Source of the DNA: Desulfobacula toluolica Tol2 | GTDB lineage: Bacteria; Desulfobacterota; Desulfobacteria; Desulfobacterales; Desulfobacteraceae | Reading direction: 5' to 3' | Length of the DNA: 64,000 bases | NCBI RefSeq assembly: GCF_000307105.1 | Contig: NC_018645.1 | Location: forward strand, 3,916,001 to 3,980,000 | Shown: piece by piece, positions 4,545-13,572 of the stretch | Position numbering within the stretch: the stretch's first letter is position 1 | Layout of the letters: the number at the start of each line of letters is the position of its first letter | Program-made: the position numbers and the translations under genes | Notes under the pieces: model-generated | What the model saw: only the letters and a program-made list of their open reading frames with translations | Told to the model about the DNA's origin: nothing | Database searches by the model: none

Positions 4545-5057
4545 CTATCTGTCTCCTGAATACGGATACCAGTCCGACTCTCTCAACCTGTCCACTTTTA
4601 ATATCGCTATTTCATAGGTTCCTGTATTAAAGACAATTTTCCTGCCCAGTTCACCACCGATATCTTCTGAAACTATTTTAATTTTTTTCCCGGATAAAAT
4701 ATGCCTGGCTGTCTTCAAATTGTCTTTGCCAATATCTTTTTTTGAATATTCCGGGTTAAACGCACCACCAAACAGTTGTGCTTCCAGGTTTGAAATATCA
4801 GACCCATTGGCCGCCATCATTCGAATCAAGGTCAGAACAGCAATATTGCCATACTTGGCTGTTGTTTTTTTCCGGGTTTCAATATATGGAAAAAGAAAAT
4901 GATTCATTCCGCCTGCTTTAAGTGATTTGTCATACAGACTAACAGCCACTGACGATCCCAGCACAGTTGAAATCGTAGTGGGTCTGTCCGGCAGATATAT
5001 ATAGCCGGGTTTCAAAAAATAATCTTTGGTGACCTGTTTTTCAGAATTTTGTGTCAT
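4545..5057 (-). CDS. CheD-like chemoreceptor deamidase homologue lacking the catalytic cysteine
   Basis: CheD deamidates glutamines of chemoreceptors and pairs with the CheY phosphatase CheC. The 170-residue sequence aligns with the family: YLPDRPTTISTVLGSSVAVSL, then GGMNHFLFP with the catalytic histidine (His53), and LEAQLFGGA further on. The catalytic cysteine of the usual LGSC motif is a serine here (Ser36), and there is no cysteine anywhere in the protein. It may therefore be a non-catalytic binding partner or a degenerate enzyme. No cheA, cheC, cheB or receptor gene is nearby. It is convergent with the ABC1 gene (6-base gap) and divergent from the NrtA-like operon, whose fifth gene carries a CheY receiver. 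Confidence 0.82.
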   Translation of the reverse strand: MTQNSEKQVTKDYFLKPGYIYLPDRPTTISTVLGSSVAVSLYDKSLKAGGMNHFLFPYIETRKKTTAKYGNIAVLTLIRMMAANGSDISNLEAQLFGGAFNPEYSKKDIGKDNLKTARHILSGKKIKIVSEDIGGELGRKIVFNTGTYEIAILKVDRLRESDWYPYSGDR

Positions 5058-5511: not shown

Positions 5512-6462
5512 ATGAAGGACACTCCCTGTATTCGTATCGGGCATCTGAAAATTGTTGATCACCTTATTCTCGGTATTGCCGCTCTTCAACTGAAAAAAAG
5601 CAAAAGAAACCTTACTCACTCAACCCTTGAAACCATTGCCATGAATTCCTGGAATCAAGTCTGTGACGATTTGACCTGTGGGAATATCGATGGTGCATTT
5701 ATCCCGTCTCCCATGGCAATCCAGCTTTTTGCATCAGGCCTTGCTATCAAAGTTTTAATGTTTACCCACCGATCCGGCAGCATTATTGTGAAAAACCGTG
5801 CCTCCCACATAAAACATCTTTCTGATTTCAAGGGCAAAACAGTGCTTATTCCTTCAAAATTTTCCATTCAACACATGCTTTTTCACCGGCTTTTATCATC
5901 TGTTGGACTTAAGCTTGGTGCCCATGACGACAATGATACAGACGTTGCAAGTGAAGTTGTCAACCCGTTTTTGATGAGCGAAATGTTAAAAAATGATCAG
6001 GATAAGGACATTGCAGGCTTTGCCGTTGCAGAGCCATATGGAAGCAAAGCGGTTTATGAAAAAATTGCCACAAAAATCTGCTTGTCGGAAAAATTGTGGA
6101 AAAACCATCCCTGCTGTGTATTTGCCCTGAAAACCTCTTTTATAGAGAACCATCCCGAAGCGGTTCAAGAAGTCATCTCCTTATTTACCCAAACCGGGCA
6201 ACACATTGCAGACGCAAAAAACGATGACATTCTTTTTATGGCACATAATTTTCTTGGACAAAACAAAGAAATCACCCGGCAGATACTTTTAAAAGCAGAC
6301 ATACACTTTAATCCGTCCTTATTAATTGCTAACATTGATGCACTATATATAATTCAAAACTATATGACAGACGCGATGGGGGTTTTCAAAAACAAAATTG
6401 ATGTAAATACCCTTGTGGACAATTCCTTTATATTAACCGCCCTGTCGGAAAAAAATCATTGA
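5512..6462 (+). CDS. Cytoplasmic NrtA/NasS-like ligand-binding protein
   Basis: This 316-residue periplasmic-binding-protein fold of the NrtA/CmpA/SsuA (nitrate-sulfonate-bicarbonate) class has no signal peptide: the mature-type start IRIGHLKIVDHL begins at residue 7. This is the hallmark of NasS-type cytoplasmic sensors rather than transport proteins. Landmarks shared with the two other binding domains of the operon are GAFIPSPMAIQLF, FTHRSGS, IAGFAVAEP and WKNHPCCV with adjacent cysteines at 201-202. It opens the operon; its stop overlaps the ATPase start by 4 bases. By analogy with NasS it could sense an intracellular oxyanion or organic anion and control expression or signalling. The ligand is unknown. 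A lost secretion signal is a less likely alternative. Confidence 0.75.
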   Translation: MKDTPCIRIGHLKIVDHLILGIAALQLKKSKRNLTHSTLETIAMNSWNQVCDDLTCGNIDGAFIPSPMAIQLFASGLAIKVLMFTHRSGSIIVKNRASHIKHLSDFKGKTVLIPSKFSIQHMLFHRLLSSVGLKLGAHDDNDTDVASEVVNPFLMSEMLKNDQDKDIAGFAVAEPYGSKAVYEKIATKICLSEKLWKNHPCCVFALKTSFIENHPEAVQEVISLFTQTGQHIADAKNDDILFMAHNFLGQNKEITRQILLKADIHFNPSLLIANIDALYIIQNYMTDAMGVFKNKIDVNTLVDNSFILTALSEKNH

Positions 6463-7226
6463 AAATAAAACTCAAAAAAGTAACAAAGCGTTACAATACA
6501 TCCGCAATATCCGATCATATCGTACTAAAAGATATCTCTTTTTCCATTGATGATGGTGATTTTGTCATTATACTGGGTGAATCCGGTTGCGGCAAAACAA
6601 CTCTTTTAAACCTGCTGGCAGGCCTTGAACTGCCGACATCCGGAAAAATCCATGTTGACGGGCACCAAATCAGAGGTATCCACCCGTCCAGGTCAATGCT
6701 TTTTCAGCAGCCCACCCTGATTCCCTGGCTGAATGTGAAAGAAAATGTTGCGTATGGATGCAAATTGCGGGGTGATACAAAAGAACTTGATTACAGGGTC
6801 AATCAATTTCTTGAACTAATGGGAATTGCAGGATTTAGCGATGCCGTTCCCAACCAGCTGTCCCTTGGTATGGCCCAGAGAGCCTGCCTTGCAAGAGCCC
6901 TTGTCGGACATCCGGAGATATTGTTATTAGACGAACCCTTTGCATCACTAGACACCTTTACCCAGGCCCATATCCAGGAAGAGCTTGTAAACTTATGGCT
7001 TTCCGAACAATTCACCGCAGTATTTGTCACCCATGATATTGATGAAGCCATCCGGCTGGGAAACAAAATCATTCTCCTGGCAGGTGAACCTGCTAATATT
7101 ATAGATATTTTTAAAATTAATACTGCATACCCAAGGGATAGAAACACTTCTGAGTTTAAAAGAATACGGACAAAAATCCTTGAACGGTTTAAAACTTCAT
7201 ACATAGCTAAAAGAAGCCTTTTATGA
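6459..7226 (+). CDS. ABC transporter ATPase, NrtD/SsuB/TauB type
   Basis: This 255-residue nucleotide-binding subunit would energise import by the binding protein and permease that follow. It has Walker A GESGCGKTT (about residues 40-48), the Q-loop in LFQQPTLIPWL, a signature segment LSLGMAQRACLARAL (LSLGM instead of the classic LSGGQ), Walker B ILLLDEPFASLD and the switch histidine in VTHDIDEA. The QQPTLIPWLNVKENV pattern is typical of nitrate/sulfonate/taurine importers. The start is a TTG at 6459 inside the stop of the previous gene, indicating translational coupling, and its own TGA overlaps the next ATG. Confidence 0.88.
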   Translation: MKIKLKKVTKRYNTSAISDHIVLKDISFSIDDGDFVIILGESGCGKTTLLNLLAGLELPTSGKIHVDGHQIRGIHPSRSMLFQQPTLIPWLNVKENVAYGCKLRGDTKELDYRVNQFLELMGIAGFSDAVPNQLSLGMAQRACLARALVGHPEILLLDEPFASLDTFTQAHIQEELVNLWLSEQFTAVFVTHDIDEAIRLGNKIILLAGEPANIIDIFKINTAYPRDRNTSEFKRIRTKILERFKTSYIAKRSLL

Positions 7227-8401
7227 TAAACTGTAAAATTCAATCCAATTCAAGACGCCAATTCCTTAAAACCGCTGCCGTGAGCTGCTCAAGCCTGTTT
7301 ATTCCAGGCAGTATCAACGCCTTTGCAAAGAAAGCCCCTCTTCGATTGGGGTATCTTCCCATAACCGATGCCACCCCGCTGCTTGTGGCCCACGTACTTG
7401 GCTATTTTTCAGAAGAAGGAGTTGCCGTTGAAAGACCCGTAATGGTGAGATCATGGAAAATACTGACTGAATCATTCCTGGCAAACAAATTCGATTTAAC
7501 CCATATGCTCTTTCCGATTCCGGTGTGGATGAGGTTTAAACAAAAAATCCCGGTAAAAGTTCTTGCCTGGGCTCACACCAATGGCAGTGCGCTTACAGTA
7601 AGAGGCGACAGCAGCATTTACAATTTCAAAGATCTTGGAGGCAAGCAGGTTGCCGTTCCTTCCTGGTATTCCATGCACAACCTGATTATTCAGATGGGTA
7701 TCCGGTCCCAGGGATTAAAGCCGGTGATAAAACCACCGCCAGCCAGACTGGAAAAGTATGAAGTCAATCTGCTTATTCTCCAGCCCCCGGATATGCCCAC
7801 AGCCCTTTTAGGCAAAAAAATTGACGGGTATATTGTTGCAGACCCTTTTAATGCACTGGCCCAGGTAAAATTTAATGCCAGAATCATGAGATTTACCGGT
7901 GATATCTGGAAAAACCATCCTTGTTGTGTCATTATTGCCAATGAAAATTTCATACATAAAAATACCGTAATAATACAAAAGGCCATGAATGCCATTGTCC
8001 GGGCGCAAGATTGGTGTATCCGCAATCCAGGTGAAACAGCCCGACTGCTAAGCCGTGACGGTGAAGGATACCTTCCTTTTCCTCAAAAAATTTTAACAAA
8101 AGTGTTTGAAAATCCTGAAAAAAATCAGTTGTCAAACCAGGATTGGAATGTTGAAAGAATCGGATTTCAGCCATTTCCTTTTCCCTCAGCCACCCGACTT
8201 ATCATTGACCAGATGAAACACACACTTGTGGAAGGAAATACGCTTTTTCTCAAAGATTTAAACACAATCATAGCGGCAGATGATCTTGTTGAAAATAAAT
8301 TTGTCATAAAAGCTCTGGATAAAACAGGGGGCATAAACCGATTCTGGAATGGTGATCCGTCCACTGCTTATACAAGGGAAGAAATCGTTGAAATCAATTA
8401 A
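7223..8401 (+). CDS. Tat-exported ABC transporter substrate-binding protein, NrtA/SsuA-like
   Basis: This 392-residue periplasmic binding protein begins with a twin-arginine signal: SRRQFLK with arginines at 11-12, then a hydrophobic stretch ending in INAFA near residue 35. After it, LRLGYLPITDATPLLVAHVLG is the standard start of NrtA/SsuA-class binding proteins. It shares WKNHPCCV with the two cytoplasmic paralogues of the operon. Export through Tat suggests the protein folds, possibly with a cofactor or metal, before export, or simply follows the habit of the family. It would capture the substrate for the ATPase upstream and the permease downstream. Substrate unknown. Confidence 0.85.
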   Translation: MINCKIQSNSRRQFLKTAAVSCSSLFIPGSINAFAKKAPLRLGYLPITDATPLLVAHVLGYFSEEGVAVERPVMVRSWKILTESFLANKFDLTHMLFPIPVWMRFKQKIPVKVLAWAHTNGSALTVRGDSSIYNFKDLGGKQVAVPSWYSMHNLIIQMGIRSQGLKPVIKPPPARLEKYEVNLLILQPPDMPTALLGKKIDGYIVADPFNALAQVKFNARIMRFTGDIWKNHPCCVIIANENFIHKNTVIIQKAMNAIVRAQDWCIRNPGETARLLSRDGEGYLPFPQKILTKVFENPEKNQLSNQDWNVERIGFQPFPFPSATRLIIDQMKHTLVEGNTLFLKDLNTIIAADDLVENKFVIKALDKTGGINRFWNGDPSTAYTREEIVEIN

Positions 8402-9218
8402 CCGATTCATATACAAAGACCCCAAACAAGTTGGGCTGAATGCTGTTTTTGGAAATCGCGATTTCGGCTGGAAATTTGAGCTGATCGGCCTTTTGTTGTT
8501 TGCATGTCTGTGGATTGCAGGCGCAAGCCTTATTTTCACACAACCGGAATTTTCACAATTCAAAGGATTTTTGCCGGGCCCGACCTTTAAAGCCCTGTTT
8601 GAGGCAACCCAGGAAAGCAGATTTTGGATCTGTGTATTTGCAAGTTTAAAAAGAATTGTCATCGGAATATTAATTGCCGCTGTCATGGGTATTCCTCTGG
8701 GTATTTTAGTTGGTTTTTACCCAAAATTTCGAAGCCTTTCATACTCCCCTATTCAATTTGTAAGAATGATAAGCCCGCTGTCATGGATGCCCATAGCACT
8801 GCTTTTATTTGCAAGTTTTGAGTCTGCTGTCTATTTTTTGATTGTAATGGCGACAATTTGCCCTATAATACTGAACACAACCATCGGGGTTTTAAATATC
8901 AATCCCCAATGGATTAAAATGGCATTGAATCAAGGAGCAAATAATTTTCAGCTGATAAAAACCATTGTTATCCCGGCATCCCTGCCATACATGCTGACCA
9001 GCCTGAGGCTGGCCCTGGGGGTTGCATGGATTGTACTTGTTCCGGCTGAATTCCTTGGAATTTCCAGCGGCCTTGGGTATTTAATCAATGATGCCAGGGA
9101 TACTATGGAGTATGACAAACTGATGGCAATAATTATTGCAATCGGCATTCTCGGGTTTGCGTTAGACAGGATTATCCAAAAAATCCAGCAGACCTTCAGT
9201 TGGTCATGGAATGAATAA
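8388..9218 (+). CDS. ABC transporter permease, NrtB/SsuC/TauC type
   Basis: This inner-membrane permease of the binding-protein-dependent transport class has about six transmembrane segments, the first at about residues 28-46. The coupling EAA-like loop is MALNQGANNFQLIKTIVIPASLP, close to the usual EAA-x3-G pattern and followed by LPYMLTSLRLALGVAW, which is characteristic of nitrate/sulfonate/taurine permeases. I chose the TTG at 8388 because AAGGGAAG lies about 8 bases upstream; an in-frame ATG at 8349 is possible but would overlap the previous gene by 53 bases. With the ATPase and the Tat-exported binding protein it completes an importer. Confidence 0.85.
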   Translation: MKSINRFIYKDPKQVGLNAVFGNRDFGWKFELIGLLLFACLWIAGASLIFTQPEFSQFKGFLPGPTFKALFEATQESRFWICVFASLKRIVIGILIAAVMGIPLGILVGFYPKFRSLSYSPIQFVRMISPLSWMPIALLLFASFESAVYFLIVMATICPIILNTTIGVLNINPQWIKMALNQGANNFQLIKTIVIPASLPYMLTSLRLALGVAWIVLVPAEFLGISSGLGYLINDARDTMEYDKLMAIIIAIGILGFALDRIIQKIQQTFSWSWNE

Positions 9219-9284
9219 TTTTAAAATAATAATAATACTATTAGTTTACATGTTTTTTATATAAAAATGTTAAGGAGTGTTTCT

Positions 9285-10658
9285 ATGGCTGTAGATCCAA
9301 ACATTAAAATTGTTGTGGCAGATGACTCTGGAACCATGAGAATGATGTTCAAGCAGATTTTGAAAAAAGCCGGGTTTGACAACCTTGTTATGGCAGTGAA
9401 TGGTGCGGACGGGCTTGAAAAAGTAAAAACTGAAAAACCGGACCTTGTCATAAGTGACTGGAATATGCCTCAAGTGGATGGCCTTAAATTTCTACAGACA
9501 CTCAGGAAAATGAATAAATTCAAAACCCTGCCGTTTATCATGGCCACAGCCCAGTCGGATAAAGGCCAGCAGATTGCCATCATGGAAGCAGGCGGCAGCG
9601 GTCATGTCCCCAAGCCTTTTGATGAAGATCAAATCAGCCGTGCCATAGAAAAAGCATTCTCCGACGACAAAAAAGAAGAACAGCCCAAGAAAAAAAAGCG
9701 GCATGTGATTGGCGGAAGAGTCGAGCTGAATGTTGCCCATATCCAGATCACGGATCATCTGGCGCTGGGTGCACTGAAACACAGGATTGAGCAAGGCGAT
9801 GTTGAACCTGAACATTTTGATTTGACCACAAGCCTTAAGGCTGGATGGAACCCCATACAAGAAGGCCTTGAAACAGGCGAATTAGACTGTGCCTTTGTAT
9901 TAGCCCCCATTGCAATGGATCTGTTTGCCTATGATTCTCCCATCAAACTGGTTTTATTTGCCCATAGAAACGGCTCAACCTTTATTCGATCCAGACATTA
10001 TGATAACAGGTTTGATTCTCTTCAAAGCTTTTACAAATACAAGGTCGTAGACATTCCACACAAAATGTCGGTCCACCACATGCTGGCTCACCAGTTTTTA
10101 AAAGAACTTGGGCTTAAACCAGGCGTTCCCGGAAAAAATGCCATCAATGTCCGGTTCGAGGTTGTTCCACCCATTCAAATGCCGGGTATCATGAAAGAAA
10201 ATGAAGATGTTGCAGGATTCATGGTAGCCGAACCAGTTGCGACAAAAGCCATTGCAGGCAGTATAGGCAACCTTGAATTCTACTCTGCCAGCCGATGGGA
10301 TAACCATCCTTGCTGTGTTGTAGCCATGCAGGAAGATTTCATCCAGAAGCACCCGGAAGCTGCACAGGAATTTGTCTCCCTTCTCATAGAAACCGGTGAA
10401 TACATTGAAAATGATAAAATCCGTGCTGCAGGCATTGCCGTTGATTTTCTGGACCCGGAAGGAAAAATAGGACTTAATCCGGAAGTGTTGAAAAACGTAT
10501 TTTCCCAGCCCCAAGCCATTAGATGGGATGGGCTATATCCGGATGCCGAGGGTATTGATAAAATTCAAAAATATATGCATGATGTCATGGAAATTGGCAA
10601 AATCATTGATCTTGATAAATTTATTGAAACCAGGTTTGCAGATAAAGTATATGGATAA
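9285..10658 (+). CDS. CheY receiver domain fused to a cytoplasmic NrtA-like binding domain
   Basis: This 457-residue protein has two parts. Residues 1-125 form a CheY-like receiver with the acidic pair Asp13/Asp14, phosphoacceptor Asp58 in SDWNMP, Thr88 and Lys110 in PKPF. A lysine-rich linker (127-140) leads to an NrtA/NasS-like binding domain (145-457). That domain carries TDHLALGAL, LDCAFVLAPIAMDLF, FAHRNGS, DVAGFMVAEP and WDNHPCCV and most resembles the product of the gene at 5512. There is no signal peptide, so both domains are cytoplasmic, and no DNA- or RNA-binding output domain. The start at 9285 is set by TAAGGAG 5 bases upstream. NasS/NasT use the same two kinds of protein as separate chains; here they are fused, implying ligand-gated control of a receiver. 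Confidence 0.88.
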   Translation: MAVDPNIKIVVADDSGTMRMMFKQILKKAGFDNLVMAVNGADGLEKVKTEKPDLVISDWNMPQVDGLKFLQTLRKMNKFKTLPFIMATAQSDKGQQIAIMEAGGSGHVPKPFDEDQISRAIEKAFSDDKKEEQPKKKKRHVIGGRVELNVAHIQITDHLALGALKHRIEQGDVEPEHFDLTTSLKAGWNPIQEGLETGELDCAFVLAPIAMDLFAYDSPIKLVLFAHRNGSTFIRSRHYDNRFDSLQSFYKYKVVDIPHKMSVHHMLAHQFLKELGLKPGVPGKNAINVRFEVVPPIQMPGIMKENEDVAGFMVAEPVATKAIAGSIGNLEFYSASRWDNHPCCVVAMQEDFIQKHPEAAQEFVSLLIETGEYIENDKIRAAGIAVDFLDPEGKIGLNPEVLKNVFSQPQAIRWDGLYPDAEGIDKIQKYMHDVMEIGKIIDLDKFIETRFADKVYG

Positions 10659-10676
10659 TCTTAAAGGGAGGCTTCC

Positions 10677-11315
10677 ATGAAAATTACTGATCCAGATGTT
10701 ATAAGAAACGGTGAAAATGATCTTATCAAAGCAGTAACAGATGACCTTGACTTAAATGCGGTCAAGGATGTTATAAAACAAAGACTTGCAGCAGCAGACC
10801 TCTCCTCCAGAGGAGGGCAAATCGTTGTTCATAATAATGAAATCGCCTTTAAACTGGATTTTGACCTTCAATTAAGCGGCAGCCTTATGTTTGACCGGCA
10901 AGGAAATTATATACCCGAATCTGACGAAACAGGTGAACATGAAAATCTTATCCCAGGAGATCTTGATACGATCGATATCAGTGACAGCCTGAATGATGAA
11001 TCCGACAAAGAATCAGATGATGAATTGGATGATGAACCGCTTGAAGATTTTAATATTGATATCCCGGATGACGACCTTGAAAAAAATTTTTTTACCAAAG
11101 ATGAGAGGTCTGATACAAGCAAAGATTCAAAAAATATTCAGGAGAATGAAGACAGTACAGTTGCAATCAGCACGCCTGATCAATTCAATAATGATTCTGA
11201 ACCGGAGCCTGGAATGGAAAATGAGGAATTTATCCCGGATGATCTGATTGATGATGACATTAATGATATCCTCAAGGAGAGCCAGGATTTTTGGGAACTG
11301 AAAAAAGAAGAATAG
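10677..11315 (+). CDS. Acidic protein of unknown function, last gene of the NrtA-like operon
   Basis: I do not recognise this 212-residue protein. Residues 1-80 look folded: helix-forming segments (NDLIKAVTDDLDLNAVKDVIKQRLAAAD) followed by a strand-rich part (GGQIVVHNNEIAFKLDFDLQLSGSLMFDRQGNYIP). From about residue 82 the chain is strongly acidic and low in complexity, with runs such as DESDKESDDELDDE, and probably disordered until residue 212. An AAGGGAGG ribosome binding site precedes the ATG, 18 bases after the receiver-binding fusion, so the two are very likely co-transcribed. The structured part could bind the receiver or the importer; this is speculation. It is convergent with nth, with only 12 bases between them and no terminator. 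Confidence 0.7.
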   Translation: MKITDPDVIRNGENDLIKAVTDDLDLNAVKDVIKQRLAAADLSSRGGQIVVHNNEIAFKLDFDLQLSGSLMFDRQGNYIPESDETGEHENLIPGDLDTIDISDSLNDESDKESDDELDDEPLEDFNIDIPDDDLEKNFFTKDERSDTSKDSKNIQENEDSTVAISTPDQFNNDSEPEPGMENEEFIPDDLIDDDINDILKESQDFWELKKEE

Positions 11316-11327
11316 ACAGGGGTGTTA

Positions 11328-11960
11328 TCACTTTGCTTTTGTCAGACAGATCTTAAACAATGGGCAATCCTGACAAAGAGGTTTTTTTGCATCACAGATT
11401 TCCCTGCCAAAGTAGATCAATTGTAATGACAAATCACTCCATGACACCTTGGGAATGATCTGCATTAATTCATGCTCAACTTTAACCGGATCTGTCTTAT
11501 CTGTCAGGCCAAGCCGCTTTGAAATTCTCAGCACATGGGTATCCACAACAATGGCCTGATGACCGAAAGCTGCCGACAAAACCACGTTAGCAGTTTTTCT
11601 GCCCACTCCCGGCAGGTTGACAAGTTTGCTGATATCCTCCGGCACCATGCCCTCATGCCTTTCCAAAATTGCCTTGGCGCAGGCTTTAATATTTTTAGCT
11701 TTATTGTTATAAAAACCTGTGGAATAAATAATTTTTTTAATATTATCCAAAGATGCATGACTCAGAGCTTCAGGATCAGGATATTTCTCAAATAATTTTT
11801 TGGATACTTTATTCACCTGCCTATCAGTACACTGGGCAGACATAATAGTGGCAACAAGCAATTGAAAAGCAGTTTCATGTTCAAGCTGGGTCTTGACAAC
11901 AGGGTATCTGCCTCTTAATATTTCAAGAATTTTTGTTATTTTGAACGCACTTAATGCCAT
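11328..11960 (-). CDS. nth: Endonuclease III (base-excision DNA glycosylase/AP lyase)
   Basis: The enzyme removes oxidised pyrimidines and cleaves at the abasic site. The 210 residues match the family length. The helix-hairpin-helix LPGVGRKTANVV contains the catalytic lysine, VDTHV the catalytic aspartate, and the C-terminus carries the 4Fe-4S ligands in the classic spacing C-x6-C-x2-C-x5-C. AQCTDRQVN is the usual N-terminal substrate motif. I start at the ATG at 11960; a longer open frame to 12041 would run through the start of the divergent PP-loop gene. There is no clear ribosome binding site. Confidence 0.93.
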   Translation of the reverse strand: MALSAFKITKILEILRGRYPVVKTQLEHETAFQLLVATIMSAQCTDRQVNKVSKKLFEKYPDPEALSHASLDNIKKIIYSTGFYNNKAKNIKACAKAILERHEGMVPEDISKLVNLPGVGRKTANVVLSAAFGHQAIVVDTHVLRISKRLGLTDKTDPVKVEHELMQIIPKVSWSDLSLQLIYFGREICDAKKPLCQDCPLFKICLTKAK

Positions 11961-11973
11961 AGGGGAGTTATAT

Positions 11974-12975
11974 ATGAAGTTTAACAAAACCGCAAGACAG
12001 GTTAAGGGGTTGGGCCTTTGTTCCGGGGGGCTGGACAGCATCCTGTCCGCACTGCTGCTTCAACGCCAGGGAATTGACGTAACCTGGATTTGCTTTGAAA
12101 CCCCTTTTTTTTCATCAGAATCAGCACAAAAAGCATCCAGTCACACCGGCATTTCCCTGATAAAAATGGATATCACGGATGAGTATATGGAAATGATGAA
12201 AAACCCCAAAGCCGGATTTGGGAAAAACATGAATCCCTGCATGGACTGTCACGCATTAATGTTTTCCAAGGCAGGTGAGGTTCTCAAAAATCAAGGCTTT
12301 GATTTTCTGTTCAGCGGAGAAGTGTTAGGTCAAAGGCCCAAATCCCAGAATAAAAATTCATTGAGATATGTGGAAAAAAACTCCGGTTTTGACGGGCAGA
12401 TTTTAAGACCTTTATCGGCAAAATTGTTATCAAAAACCCTTGCTGAACAAAAAGGGCTGGTTGACCGGGAACAGCTCATGGATATCTCGGGCAGGTCAAG
12501 AAAAATTCAAATGCAGATGGCCCAGGATTTTGGTGTTAAAGAATACCCGGCTCCTGCTGGCGGGTGTCTTTTAACCGACAAGATCTTTTCAAACCGGCTC
12601 AAAGATCTGATGGATACTCAAAAAATTTTCAATACCCGGGAACTTCATTTCTTAAAATACGGCAGACACTTCAGGCTTGATTCAAAAACCAAAATAATTG
12701 CAGGACGGTCTAAAAATGATAACACACATCTGCTCAATTATTTTGATAAAGACAAAGACATTTTATTAAAACATGTCAAACTGCCCGGACCGGATGTAAT
12801 TTTAACAGGTAATGCCACCCCGGAAAACATTCAAACAGCTGCTGGAATATGTGCAGGCTATACCAAATCAAAACCAGGCGAAACAGCAAAAATAAGGATT
12901 ATAAAAAAAGAAACAGAAGATTTTATCACCGTTATTACGGTTCCGGCATCAAACTTTAAAAACCTGATGATATAA
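11974..12975 (+). CDS. PP-loop ATP pyrophosphatase, tRNA-thiolation-like (TrmU/ThiI-related)
   Basis: This 333-residue protein has an N-terminal PP-loop LCSGGLDSILSALLL (SGGxDS, residues about 15-29), as in enzymes that adenylate tRNA bases or other carbonyls before sulfur transfer. A conserved MNPCMDCHALMF provides a CxxC that could carry sulfur or bind metal, and PAPAGGCLLTD with a further cysteine precedes the C-terminal region. These features are seen in a group annotated as tRNA 2-thiouridylase-like or DUF814-type proteins. The exact substrate is uncertain. The start at 11974 has AGGGGAG 5-8 bases upstream. It is divergent from nth and ends at a strong terminator. Confidence 0.7.
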   Translation: MKFNKTARQVKGLGLCSGGLDSILSALLLQRQGIDVTWICFETPFFSSESAQKASSHTGISLIKMDITDEYMEMMKNPKAGFGKNMNPCMDCHALMFSKAGEVLKNQGFDFLFSGEVLGQRPKSQNKNSLRYVEKNSGFDGQILRPLSAKLLSKTLAEQKGLVDREQLMDISGRSRKIQMQMAQDFGVKEYPAPAGGCLLTDKIFSNRLKDLMDTQKIFNTRELHFLKYGRHFRLDSKTKIIAGRSKNDNTHLLNYFDKDKDILLKHVKLPGPDVILTGNATPENIQTAAGICAGYTKSKPGETAKIRIIKKETEDFITVITVPASNFKNLMI

Positions 12976-13026
12976 AAAAATCCCCTTTAAGGCTTTTCAA
13001 AAACAGACACCTTAAAGGGGATTTTT
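12975..13026. terminator. Bidirectional intrinsic terminator
   Basis: Inverted repeat with arms TCCCCTTTAAGG (12981-12992) and CCTTAAAGGGGA (13010-13021), flanked by A-run on the left and T-run on the right. It can end the PP-loop gene transcript on the plus strand and the receiver gene transcript on the minus strand. Confidence 0.88.
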
Positions 13027-13086
13027 CGTTTTTTGTTGTAGCAGCACAATCTGCCATGGCCTTTATTTAAACCATTGGCAGTTGAT

Positions 13087-13572
13087 TTAATAATAAATCA
13101 TCTTTTCCCAGAATTCTTTTTCATCTTTATTCCAGTCAGGCCCGAATTTTTCTTCACAAAAAGATGCAAGCCTTGTATACCAGCTCGCCCAAGGATTTTT
13201 TCCTTCCTGTTTAGCTTTCAGCACATCAAGAAGAAATGTTTCAATATTGATCATTTCTTCTTTTGGTATATACGAGCAGGCACCACCAAGATAAGATTTT
13301 TTTATATTCTCAGGACTGAGTGCATGAGCTGTAAGCATCACAGTTATAACATTTTTATTGTTTGCGTTTTCCAGCAACTGATATCCATCAACACCCATGA
13401 TATCAAGAACCGCTATATCAAACTCCTGGGTTTCAAGAAAATGATTTGCTTGTTCAAAGCTTTGCGCCCTGACTGTTGTACACATATCGAGCAATTCTTC
13501 CAAAGAATCAAGAATATCCGGTTCATCATCAACAATCAAAACTTTTTTGTTTTCCAGACTGATATTTGACAT
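13087..13572 (-). CDS. Single-domain response regulator (CheY-like) with C-terminal extension
   Basis: The 161-residue protein has a receiver domain with Asp15/Asp16 in VDDEPD, phosphoacceptor Asp57 in LDIMGVDGY, threonine in LTAH and lysine in PKEE. After residue 120 follows an aromatic and charged tail (WASWYTRLASFCEEKFGPDW) found in small receiver proteins of sulfate reducers rather than a DNA-binding domain. No histidine kinase lies next to it, so it is an orphan. Such proteins probably act by protein-protein contact. Transcription ends at the terminator at 12975-13026. Confidence 0.85.
   Translation of the reverse strand: MSNISLENKKVLIVDDEPDILDSLEELLDMCTTVRAQSFEQANHFLETQEFDIAVLDIMGVDGYQLLENANNKNVITVMLTAHALSPENIKKSYLGGACSYIPKEEMINIETFLLDVLKAKQEGKNPWASWYTRLASFCEEKFGPDWNKDEKEFWEKMIYY

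Follow-up and report, generated by a model that had tools for sequence, protein, structure and literature searches.

A receiver-NMT1 fusion protein beside an importer operon in Desulfobacula toluolica Tol2, a probable cytosolic chemosensory module

We analysed a 64,000-nucleotide stretch of the genome of Desulfobacula toluolica Tol2 (the window, G000:C1:3916001-3980000, where G000 is the organism's own genome), whose closest named relatives are Desulfobacula and other Desulfobacteraceae, referred to here as the family. It holds an operon in which a stand-alone NMT1 protein (gene 1) and an ATP-binding cassette (ABC) importer (genes 2-4) are followed by gene 5, a fusion of a CheY-type receiver to a cytosolic NMT1/NrtA-like binding domain, with a divergent cheD upstream. 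We consider it probable that CheD and genes 1-5 form a cytosolic chemosensory module which reports an imported ligand to a CheA/CheW array. At the level of sequence comparison, this reading is carried by the architecture of the fusion, its intact receiver residues, its conserved binding domain and its tie to chemotaxis genes, and also by the block-wise presence and absence of the module and its co-inheritance with an unlinked NMT1 protein.

The fusion protein and its tie to chemotaxis genes

The fusion gene and its two domains are placed as follows:

9267-10658, plus strand: gene 5, CheY-type receiver and cytosolic NMT1_2/NrtA-like domain (Pfam Response_reg 5e-26, NMT1_2 7e-28)
9309-9647, plus strand: receiver domain of gene 5, residues 15-127 (Pfam, alignment of fusions)
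9714-10655, plus strand: NMT1/NrtA-like domain of gene 5, residues 150-463 (Pfam, alignment, structure matches)

A receiver joined to an NrtA-like domain had been proposed in an earlier interpretation of the bare DNA (the sequence-only reading), and is upheld by both Pfam matches and by an AlphaFold model built on a 36-sequence alignment (pLDDT 88.4, pTM 0.86). The CheY active-site set (an Asp pair, the phosphorylatable Asp, Thr/Ser and Lys) is present, 36 of 36 aligned fusions keep the receiver residues D20, D64, T94 and K116, and the modelled receiver has the CheY fold (Vibrio cholerae CheY3, root-mean-square deviation 0.9 over 124 residues; Escherichia coli CheY, ~39% identity). By eye, gene 5 carries His at what we take to be the position of E. 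coli CheY Tyr106, looked at for FliM motor binding. Candidate pocket residues of the fusion were also invariant in all 36, as were the columns HIQITDH, GWN, HxxGS, PHxxSxHHML and WxxHPCC of the binding part, and by an eye count of invariant columns the receiver and the NMT1 part are conserved at about equal density. Structural matches to the binding part were 3un6 (zinc bound, according to its title), CmpA and NrtA, and the cytosolic NrtA-like regulatory domains of CmpC and NrtC were among the best (PDB 8wm7, 9uai, 9u9z), which makes the parallel earlier drawn with NasS an apt one in fold and location. No signal peptide was seen by eye in genes 1 and 5. Since many orthologues start with MAV, and residues 1-6 have a pLDDT below 50, gene 5 probably starts at an internal ATG at 9285.

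Pfam found neither a CheW domain nor an ANTAR match in the window protein, so the statement of the sequence-only reading that no output domain is present holds for this chain, but fails for its relatives, which carry CheW or CheA. A phylum survey (395 genomes, E ≤1e-60) matched the fusion in 20 genomes besides its own; the 20 full-length proteins, all from outside the family and from 19 of these genomes, share a receiver-NMT1_2-CheW architecture, with D14, D59, T89 and K111 kept in 20 of 20 (the partial L118 sequence was excluded from the alignment). Ten distant relatives scanned singly had CheW in seven cases, neither output in two and a CheA-type region in one, where a single protein (L085:8001-11213) joins the receiver and NMT1 domains to a CheA-type dimerisation, ATPase and CheW region, possibly making it a ligand-gated CheA. 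No ANTAR or DNA-binding domain occurred in the fusions scanned by Pfam, the outputs found being CheW or CheA. As a side observation, one 1212-amino-acid open frame (G109:C435:19539-22337) holds two tandem receiver-NMT1 matches.

Some fusions lie inside chemotaxis gene clusters. The order in locus L061 is CheW, CheA, CheD, CheX, CheB, CheD, fusion, CheR, receiver, CheA; that in L066 is CheA, kinase-receiver, fusion, receiver, CheA-like, CheX; and L152 shows CheB, CheR, CheD, fusion (by tblastn only). Genes for methyl-accepting chemotaxis proteins (MCPs) adjoin the fusion in L074, L080 and L083 (Pfam) and in L106 and L119 (tblastn). The D. toluolica genome itself has nine CheW-domain matches, three of which are in CheA-length frames (695-887 amino acids).

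Across 145 genomes, the full-length fusion was found in 73 (own included), each of which also has CheW genes (73 of 73), and in none of the 25 CheW-less genomes; within the family, CheW is present in 60 of 60 fusion genomes and the fusion in 0 of 13 CheW-less ones. When only family genomes at least 90% complete are counted (n = 54), CheW accompanies the fusion in all 39 that have it, and the six CheW-less genomes all fall among the 15 that do not. The presence/absence lists were transcribed by hand from search tables, five CheW-less genomes were identified by subtraction, and G045 entered the fusion-bearing set through a full-length 42% match and two fragments of 69-70%. The acidic gene 6 gave a partial control, in that 5 of the 13 CheW-less family genomes still have a strong orthologue (E <1e-25); an unrelated NMT1_2 binding protein occurred in only 7 of the 145 genomes, all with CheW, too few for a control. 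The CheW and CheA fusions, the che clusters and the absence from all 25 CheW-less genomes support the earlier suggestion of a sensory module acting through its receiver on motility or on a kinase.

The operon, CheD and the importer

The other features of the locus are:

4545-5057, minus strand, divergent from the operon: cheD, CheD family (Pfam CheD 1.4e-20)
5512-6462, plus strand: gene 1, stand-alone cytosolic NMT1_2 (NrtA-like) protein, fast-evolving (Pfam NMT1_2 9.7e-30)
6459-7226, plus strand, TTG start: gene 2, ABC importer ATPase (Pfam ABC_tran 1.6e-34; 64-89% identity in family operon loci)
7223-8401, plus strand: gene 3, presumably periplasmic NMT1_2 binding protein with a Tat-like signal (Pfam NMT1_2 3e-41)
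8349-9218, plus strand: gene 4, ABC importer permease (Pfam BPD_transp_1 4.1e-20)
10677-11315, plus strand: gene 6, acidic protein, judged to lie outside the module (no Pfam family)

Genes 1-6 are the six tightly ordered, same-strand open reading frames that the sequence-only reading described, and Pfam supports its domain calls for genes 1-5, but its gene list overlooked the divergent cheD. Gene 3 is an NMT1_2 binding protein as claimed, whereas its Tat export is less secure, the signal match being weak (Pfam TAT_signal 0.0057, 17 bits, below the 22.7 cut-off). Gene 4 may start ~7 codons further downstream, because many homologue alignments start at residue 7-10.

We examined 43 family loci (L031-L069, L077, L082, L087 and L088). 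Genes 1-6 occur in this order on one strand in 33 of them (gene 1 being cut by the contig start in L067), contig ends interrupt another eight, and two (L061, L066) have the fusion away from the operon. As the order recurs across the family, the operon is neither a chance arrangement nor an oddity of one strain; confinement to this strain, or loss of the receiver residues or pocket, had been named beforehand as grounds for abandoning the idea, and we see neither in these 33 loci or in the 36 aligned fusions. Across operon loci gene 5 has 72-88% identity, and in most of them no other operon gene is conserved as well; gene 1 ranks last among genes 1-5 (33-64%), and the stretch matching it in a Desulfobacter locus (L049:6141-7082) contains an in-frame stop. 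The surroundings of the family operon are stable, consisting of ACAD, ABC1 kinase, acidic gene and Nth. The window also encodes a small receiver protein (13087-13572, minus strand), of which a gene that is near-identical by eye stands in the same neighbourhood in the fusion-less L122 and L124.

We examined 12 stretches around the acidic gene from genomes without a full fusion (L121-L130, L132 and L133). CheD and genes 1-5 are missing as a block from this site in all 12, and the ABC1-kinase gene directly adjoins the acidic gene in eight (L122-L129). Since gene 6 persists where the others are absent from the site, it is a resident neighbour, and the unit is CheD with genes 1-5, without the gene 6 that the sequence-only reading had included; the conservation of neighbours that it had proposed to check is found for the ABC genes (33 of 43 family loci) but, for the acidic gene, reflects residence and not membership. 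The C-terminal motif of the acidic protein is kept in 11 of the 12 fusion-less stretches, five of them from genomes without CheW (L121, L124, L125, L128 and L130); its tail, DDINDILKESRxFWE, was considered as a FliM/CheZ-like CheY-binding peptide and rejected on account of this conservation. The protein has no Pfam family, a poor model (pTM 0.26) and no PDB match at E 0.001. Its conserved 80-residue N-domain was found in 104 of the 145 genomes, and in L131 a paralogue (G000:C1:4044584-4044829) comes, by eye, immediately after a gene for a ParA-like ATPase.

CheD was assigned to the unit because, of the 27 operon loci whose upstream sequence reaches 1.4 kb or more, 20 have it upstream of gene 1. 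The window copy matches the CheD family and has GSS in place of GSC, the cysteine of which we take to be the catalytic residue of CheD deamidases. Among 18 aligned copies beside operon or fusion (from the window, from 16 of the 20 CheD-bearing operon loci and, beside the fusion, from L061) there were 17 with GSS and one with GSG, and GSC stood in 3 of 3 other CheD proteins in the same alignment; the putative catalytic cysteine thus appears to be lost near the short, CheW-less fusion. Fifteen further stretches with this CheD group, chosen from 61 genomes, had GSC in nine, GSS in two, GSG in three and GTG in one, and because nine keep GSC the loss is a feature of the copies near the short fusion and does not extend to the group at large. 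The CheD that adjoins a CheW-form fusion in L151 keeps GSC but has GGINQF where others have GGMNHF. Four of the 12 fusion-less genomes carry a CheD of this group elsewhere, namely G010 and G044 (kinase-acidic neighbours), G001 and G075. The G001 copy (L153:1629-2012), in a genome without CheW genes, is truncated and of the GSS type; it is likely a relic, which favours loss over gain.

Importer and sensor are associated but separable. A gene 3 orthologue (E ≤1e-60) was found in 69 of the 145 genomes, all with CheW, of which 67 have the fusion and two (fragmented) do not; outside the family, a CheW-form fusion heads an ABC operon in L137, where ATPase, binding-protein and permease genes follow 12 bases downstream. 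The NrtABC-type nitrate importer of the sequence-only reading was not substantiated: the two nitrate models listed scored below their NCBIfam cut-offs (ntrCD 194.8 vs. 291.8 bits, ntrB 134.1 vs. 209.05, among the best 25 of 198 matches for gene 2), and the HPCC site of the fusion aligns with HPGK in the CmpC and QPKK in the NrtC domains (a comparison with these two domains only), the lysine of these domains being a cysteine in the fusion. Nitrate is therefore not an obvious ligand. The imported ligand would also be the one sensed.

An unlinked NMT1 protein and the history of the domain

A stand-alone cytosolic NMT1 protein, which we term the orphan, is encoded far from the operon at G000:C1:2748305-2749240 (L091:9303-10241). 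Matches to it (E ≤1e-80) were found in 63 of the 145 genomes, comprising 61 of 65 with the short fusion, none of eight with only a long frame, and two of 72 others, both fragmented assemblies; the G029 match, at just 51% identity, may be a paralogue. Outside the family, short fusions were called by open-frame length (with Pfam for G098 and G102 only), as were the eight long-frame-only genomes (with Pfam for G107 only). The two genomes with gene 3 and the orphan but without a full fusion, G007 and G048, are fragmented assemblies of 750 and 1270 contigs. Orphan and fusion are neighbours in G098 and G131, G102 has a 59% relative of the orphan directly upstream of its fusion (L146), and in L061 a 437-amino-acid gene (11725-13038) separates the two. 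L150, of the same phylum as the Spirochaetales locus L070, has a receiver gene and an orphan-type NMT1 gene adjacent and unfused; four of the 344 genomes of that phylum match, the L070 genome included, one of them through this split pair. Co-inheritance with the orphan, adjacency and the split pair point to receiver and NMT1 domains working as partners, the short form with a partner NMT1 protein.

Other NMT1 genes of D. toluolica were observed alongside. The orphan adjoins a 431-amino-acid gene, and the gene found in L061 between fusion and orphan is, by eye, a homologue of it; a third cytosolic NMT1-type protein that stands alone (G000:C1:3721709-3722626, L093:9704-10630) is ~50% identical to the first orphan; and an NMT1_2 match at G000:C1:4632677-4633363, in a 331-amino-acid frame with one in-frame TGA, is either a selenoprotein or a broken gene.

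A tree of NMT1 domains, rooted at the midpoint only and with several long gene 1 branches, has three groups, namely the periplasmic gene 3, gene 1 with the orphans, and the fusions. Gene 1 forms one clade (100/98), the Desulfobacteraceae short fusions group with a Spirochaetales sequence (100/97) beside the CheW forms, and two frames without CheW, from L073 and L083, are interspersed with the CheW forms. The short form may plausibly have lost its CheW, as far as a tree with an uncertain root can tell loss from gain.

Mechanism, alternatives and known systems

We propose that genes 2-4 would import a small ligand, that the NMT1 domain of gene 5 would, in the cytosol, bind this ligand or one of its products, and that binding would alter phosphorylation of the receiver by the CheA/CheW array or its partners, or docking on them. 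The chain's own CheW domain would, in most other lineages seen, place the fusion in the array in the manner of CheV; the CheW-less fusion of the Desulfobacteraceae would be a diffusible CheY-like adaptor, probably working with the second cytosolic NMT1 protein, and the CheD of the short-fusion module may, as an inactive enzyme, bind receptors or CheY-like proteins. The feeding of the sensor by import, phosphotransfer from CheA, docking on the array and the sign of the response are what we infer. A bolder version, somewhat less likely than not, may also be entertained: the cell would 'swallow and steer' with no transmembrane sensor, the ABC importer, the NMT1-receiver fusion with its partner NMT1 protein and a dead CheD setting CheA output, and the receiver-NMT1, -CheW and -CheA proteins would form an unrecognised array class in Desulfobacterota and some Spirochaetota.

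Several observations weigh against a chemosensory module. The window protein has no CheW and lies outside any che cluster, cheD being the only che neighbour found; a separate che or MCP gene was present in only 4 of 15 non-family loci in the flanks examined (L070-L086 less L077 and L082), and among the 20 phylum-survey loci (flanks of at most 1.5 kb) an MCP was present in only two, 18 having no separate che gene. No convincing FliA or sigma-54 promoter was seen in 20 upstream regions scanned, FliA-like matches with two mismatches occurring in three of these and none in the window. The fusion is missing from 47 of 120 CheW-bearing genomes; Fisher values for the co-occurrence with CheW (73 of 73) carry no correction for shared ancestry, CheW-less genomes may be generally reduced, and the strong acidic-gene orthologue is itself missing from 8 of the 13 in the family. 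Loss of the CheD cysteine is not general in its group, where 9 of 15 further members keep it, and six CheW-bearing non-family genomes have the fusion without gene 3, so the importer is not obligatory.

These last six genomes would suit a different role, in which the fusion draws phosphate off CheA as an accessory receiver of the CheV kind, its NMT1 domain tunes only stability or location, and the importer is an independent passenger. CheV has been proposed as a phosphate sink (in a passage of PMC4742279), and the receiver is intact in all 36 fusions; the NMT1 part, however, is conserved about as densely as the receiver, gene 3 and the fusion occur together in 67 genomes (gene 3 only in two, fusion only in six), and L137 has the CheW form in one operon with an importer, and we think this role unlikely. 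We give no better chance to a chemosensory-type pathway with another output (expression, cyclic di-GMP or development) or to control of the importer in the manner of NasS-NasT. NasS is indeed a cytosolic NrtA-like regulator (as a passage of PMC3795266 has it), CmpC and NrtC carry cytosolic NrtA-like regulatory domains, and the 437-amino-acid gene of L061 has a DNA-binding look by eye (with no Pfam match at 1e-5), but the Pfam-scanned fusions have CheW or CheA outputs and no ANTAR or DNA-binding domain. Least credible, and very improbable in our view, is an ordinary uptake operon with a domain-shuffled receiver conserved by its position: the neighbourhood of the family operon is stable, as this would predict, but the fusion is the best-conserved operon gene in most loci, is present in the che clusters of L061 and L066 with no importer, and turns up in 20 other phylum-survey genomes, recurrence outside the operon speaking against conservation by position.

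A chemosensory module of this kind is nearest to CheWS by working principle, to CheV by its parts, and to NasS-NasT and the NrtC/CmpC domains by its sensor. The domain order of CheV is the reverse of that in the CheW-bearing relatives, which have the receiver first, CheW last and a ~310-residue binding domain between, and the window form has no CheW; the output of NasT is ANTAR. The NrtC and CmpC C-terminal regulatory domains are cytosolic, NrtA-like and closely similar in fold, but are fused to a transporter ATPase and not to a receiver. CheWS of Treponema denticola was called the first reported characterised CheW-fused chemotaxis sensor by its authors in 2023 and is an array-anchored fusion of a cytosolic small-molecule sensor domain to CheW, the CheW-bearing relatives likewise joining a cytosolic sensor domain to CheW; its sensor domain is CheR-like and binds S-adenosylmethionine, with no receiver or importer mentioned in passages of PMC10653840, and the window protein differs by having no CheW. 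CheV likewise joins receiver and CheW in one chain and is a possible phosphate sink (passage of PMC4742279). NasS-NasT pairs a cytosolic NrtA-like sensor with a response regulator, but as separate chains with an RNA-binding NasT (in parts of PMC3795266), whereas the window chain is fused and linked to chemotaxis. Sensing of sugar influx by the phosphotransferase system is also an uptake-coupled cytosolic signal to the chemotaxis pathway, but works by a phosphotransfer network, and the abstract of PMC4996493 names no binding-protein domain. The CheD of Bacillus subtilis acts mainly through binding, its deamidase activity being minor (according to parts of PMC3513319), and differs in being an active deamidase, the operon CheD having no GSC cysteine.

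A description of a receiver-NMT1 fusion was not found among the papers that the literature searches listed, and the architecture may be among the 30 undescribed CheW architectures of PMC10653840, as given in its passages; term look-ups found none of five binding-domain terms in PMC10782961, and neither chemotaxis, motility nor NMT1 in PMC11887813, a Desulfobacteraceae proteome study.

The module suggests a cytosolic sensor wired to the chemotaxis machinery and a little-known way to steer by what has already been imported. Chemotaxis is usually taught as MCPs sensing outside the membrane. The split, fused, CheW-bearing and CheA-bearing forms provide a natural series for studying how input domains are wired to CheA, together with a set of CheD proteins that lack the cysteine of GSC. 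If our reading is true, an ABC-transporter-type binding domain would join the array toolkit, and an array sensor would be tied to its cognate importer across a family of sulfate reducers.

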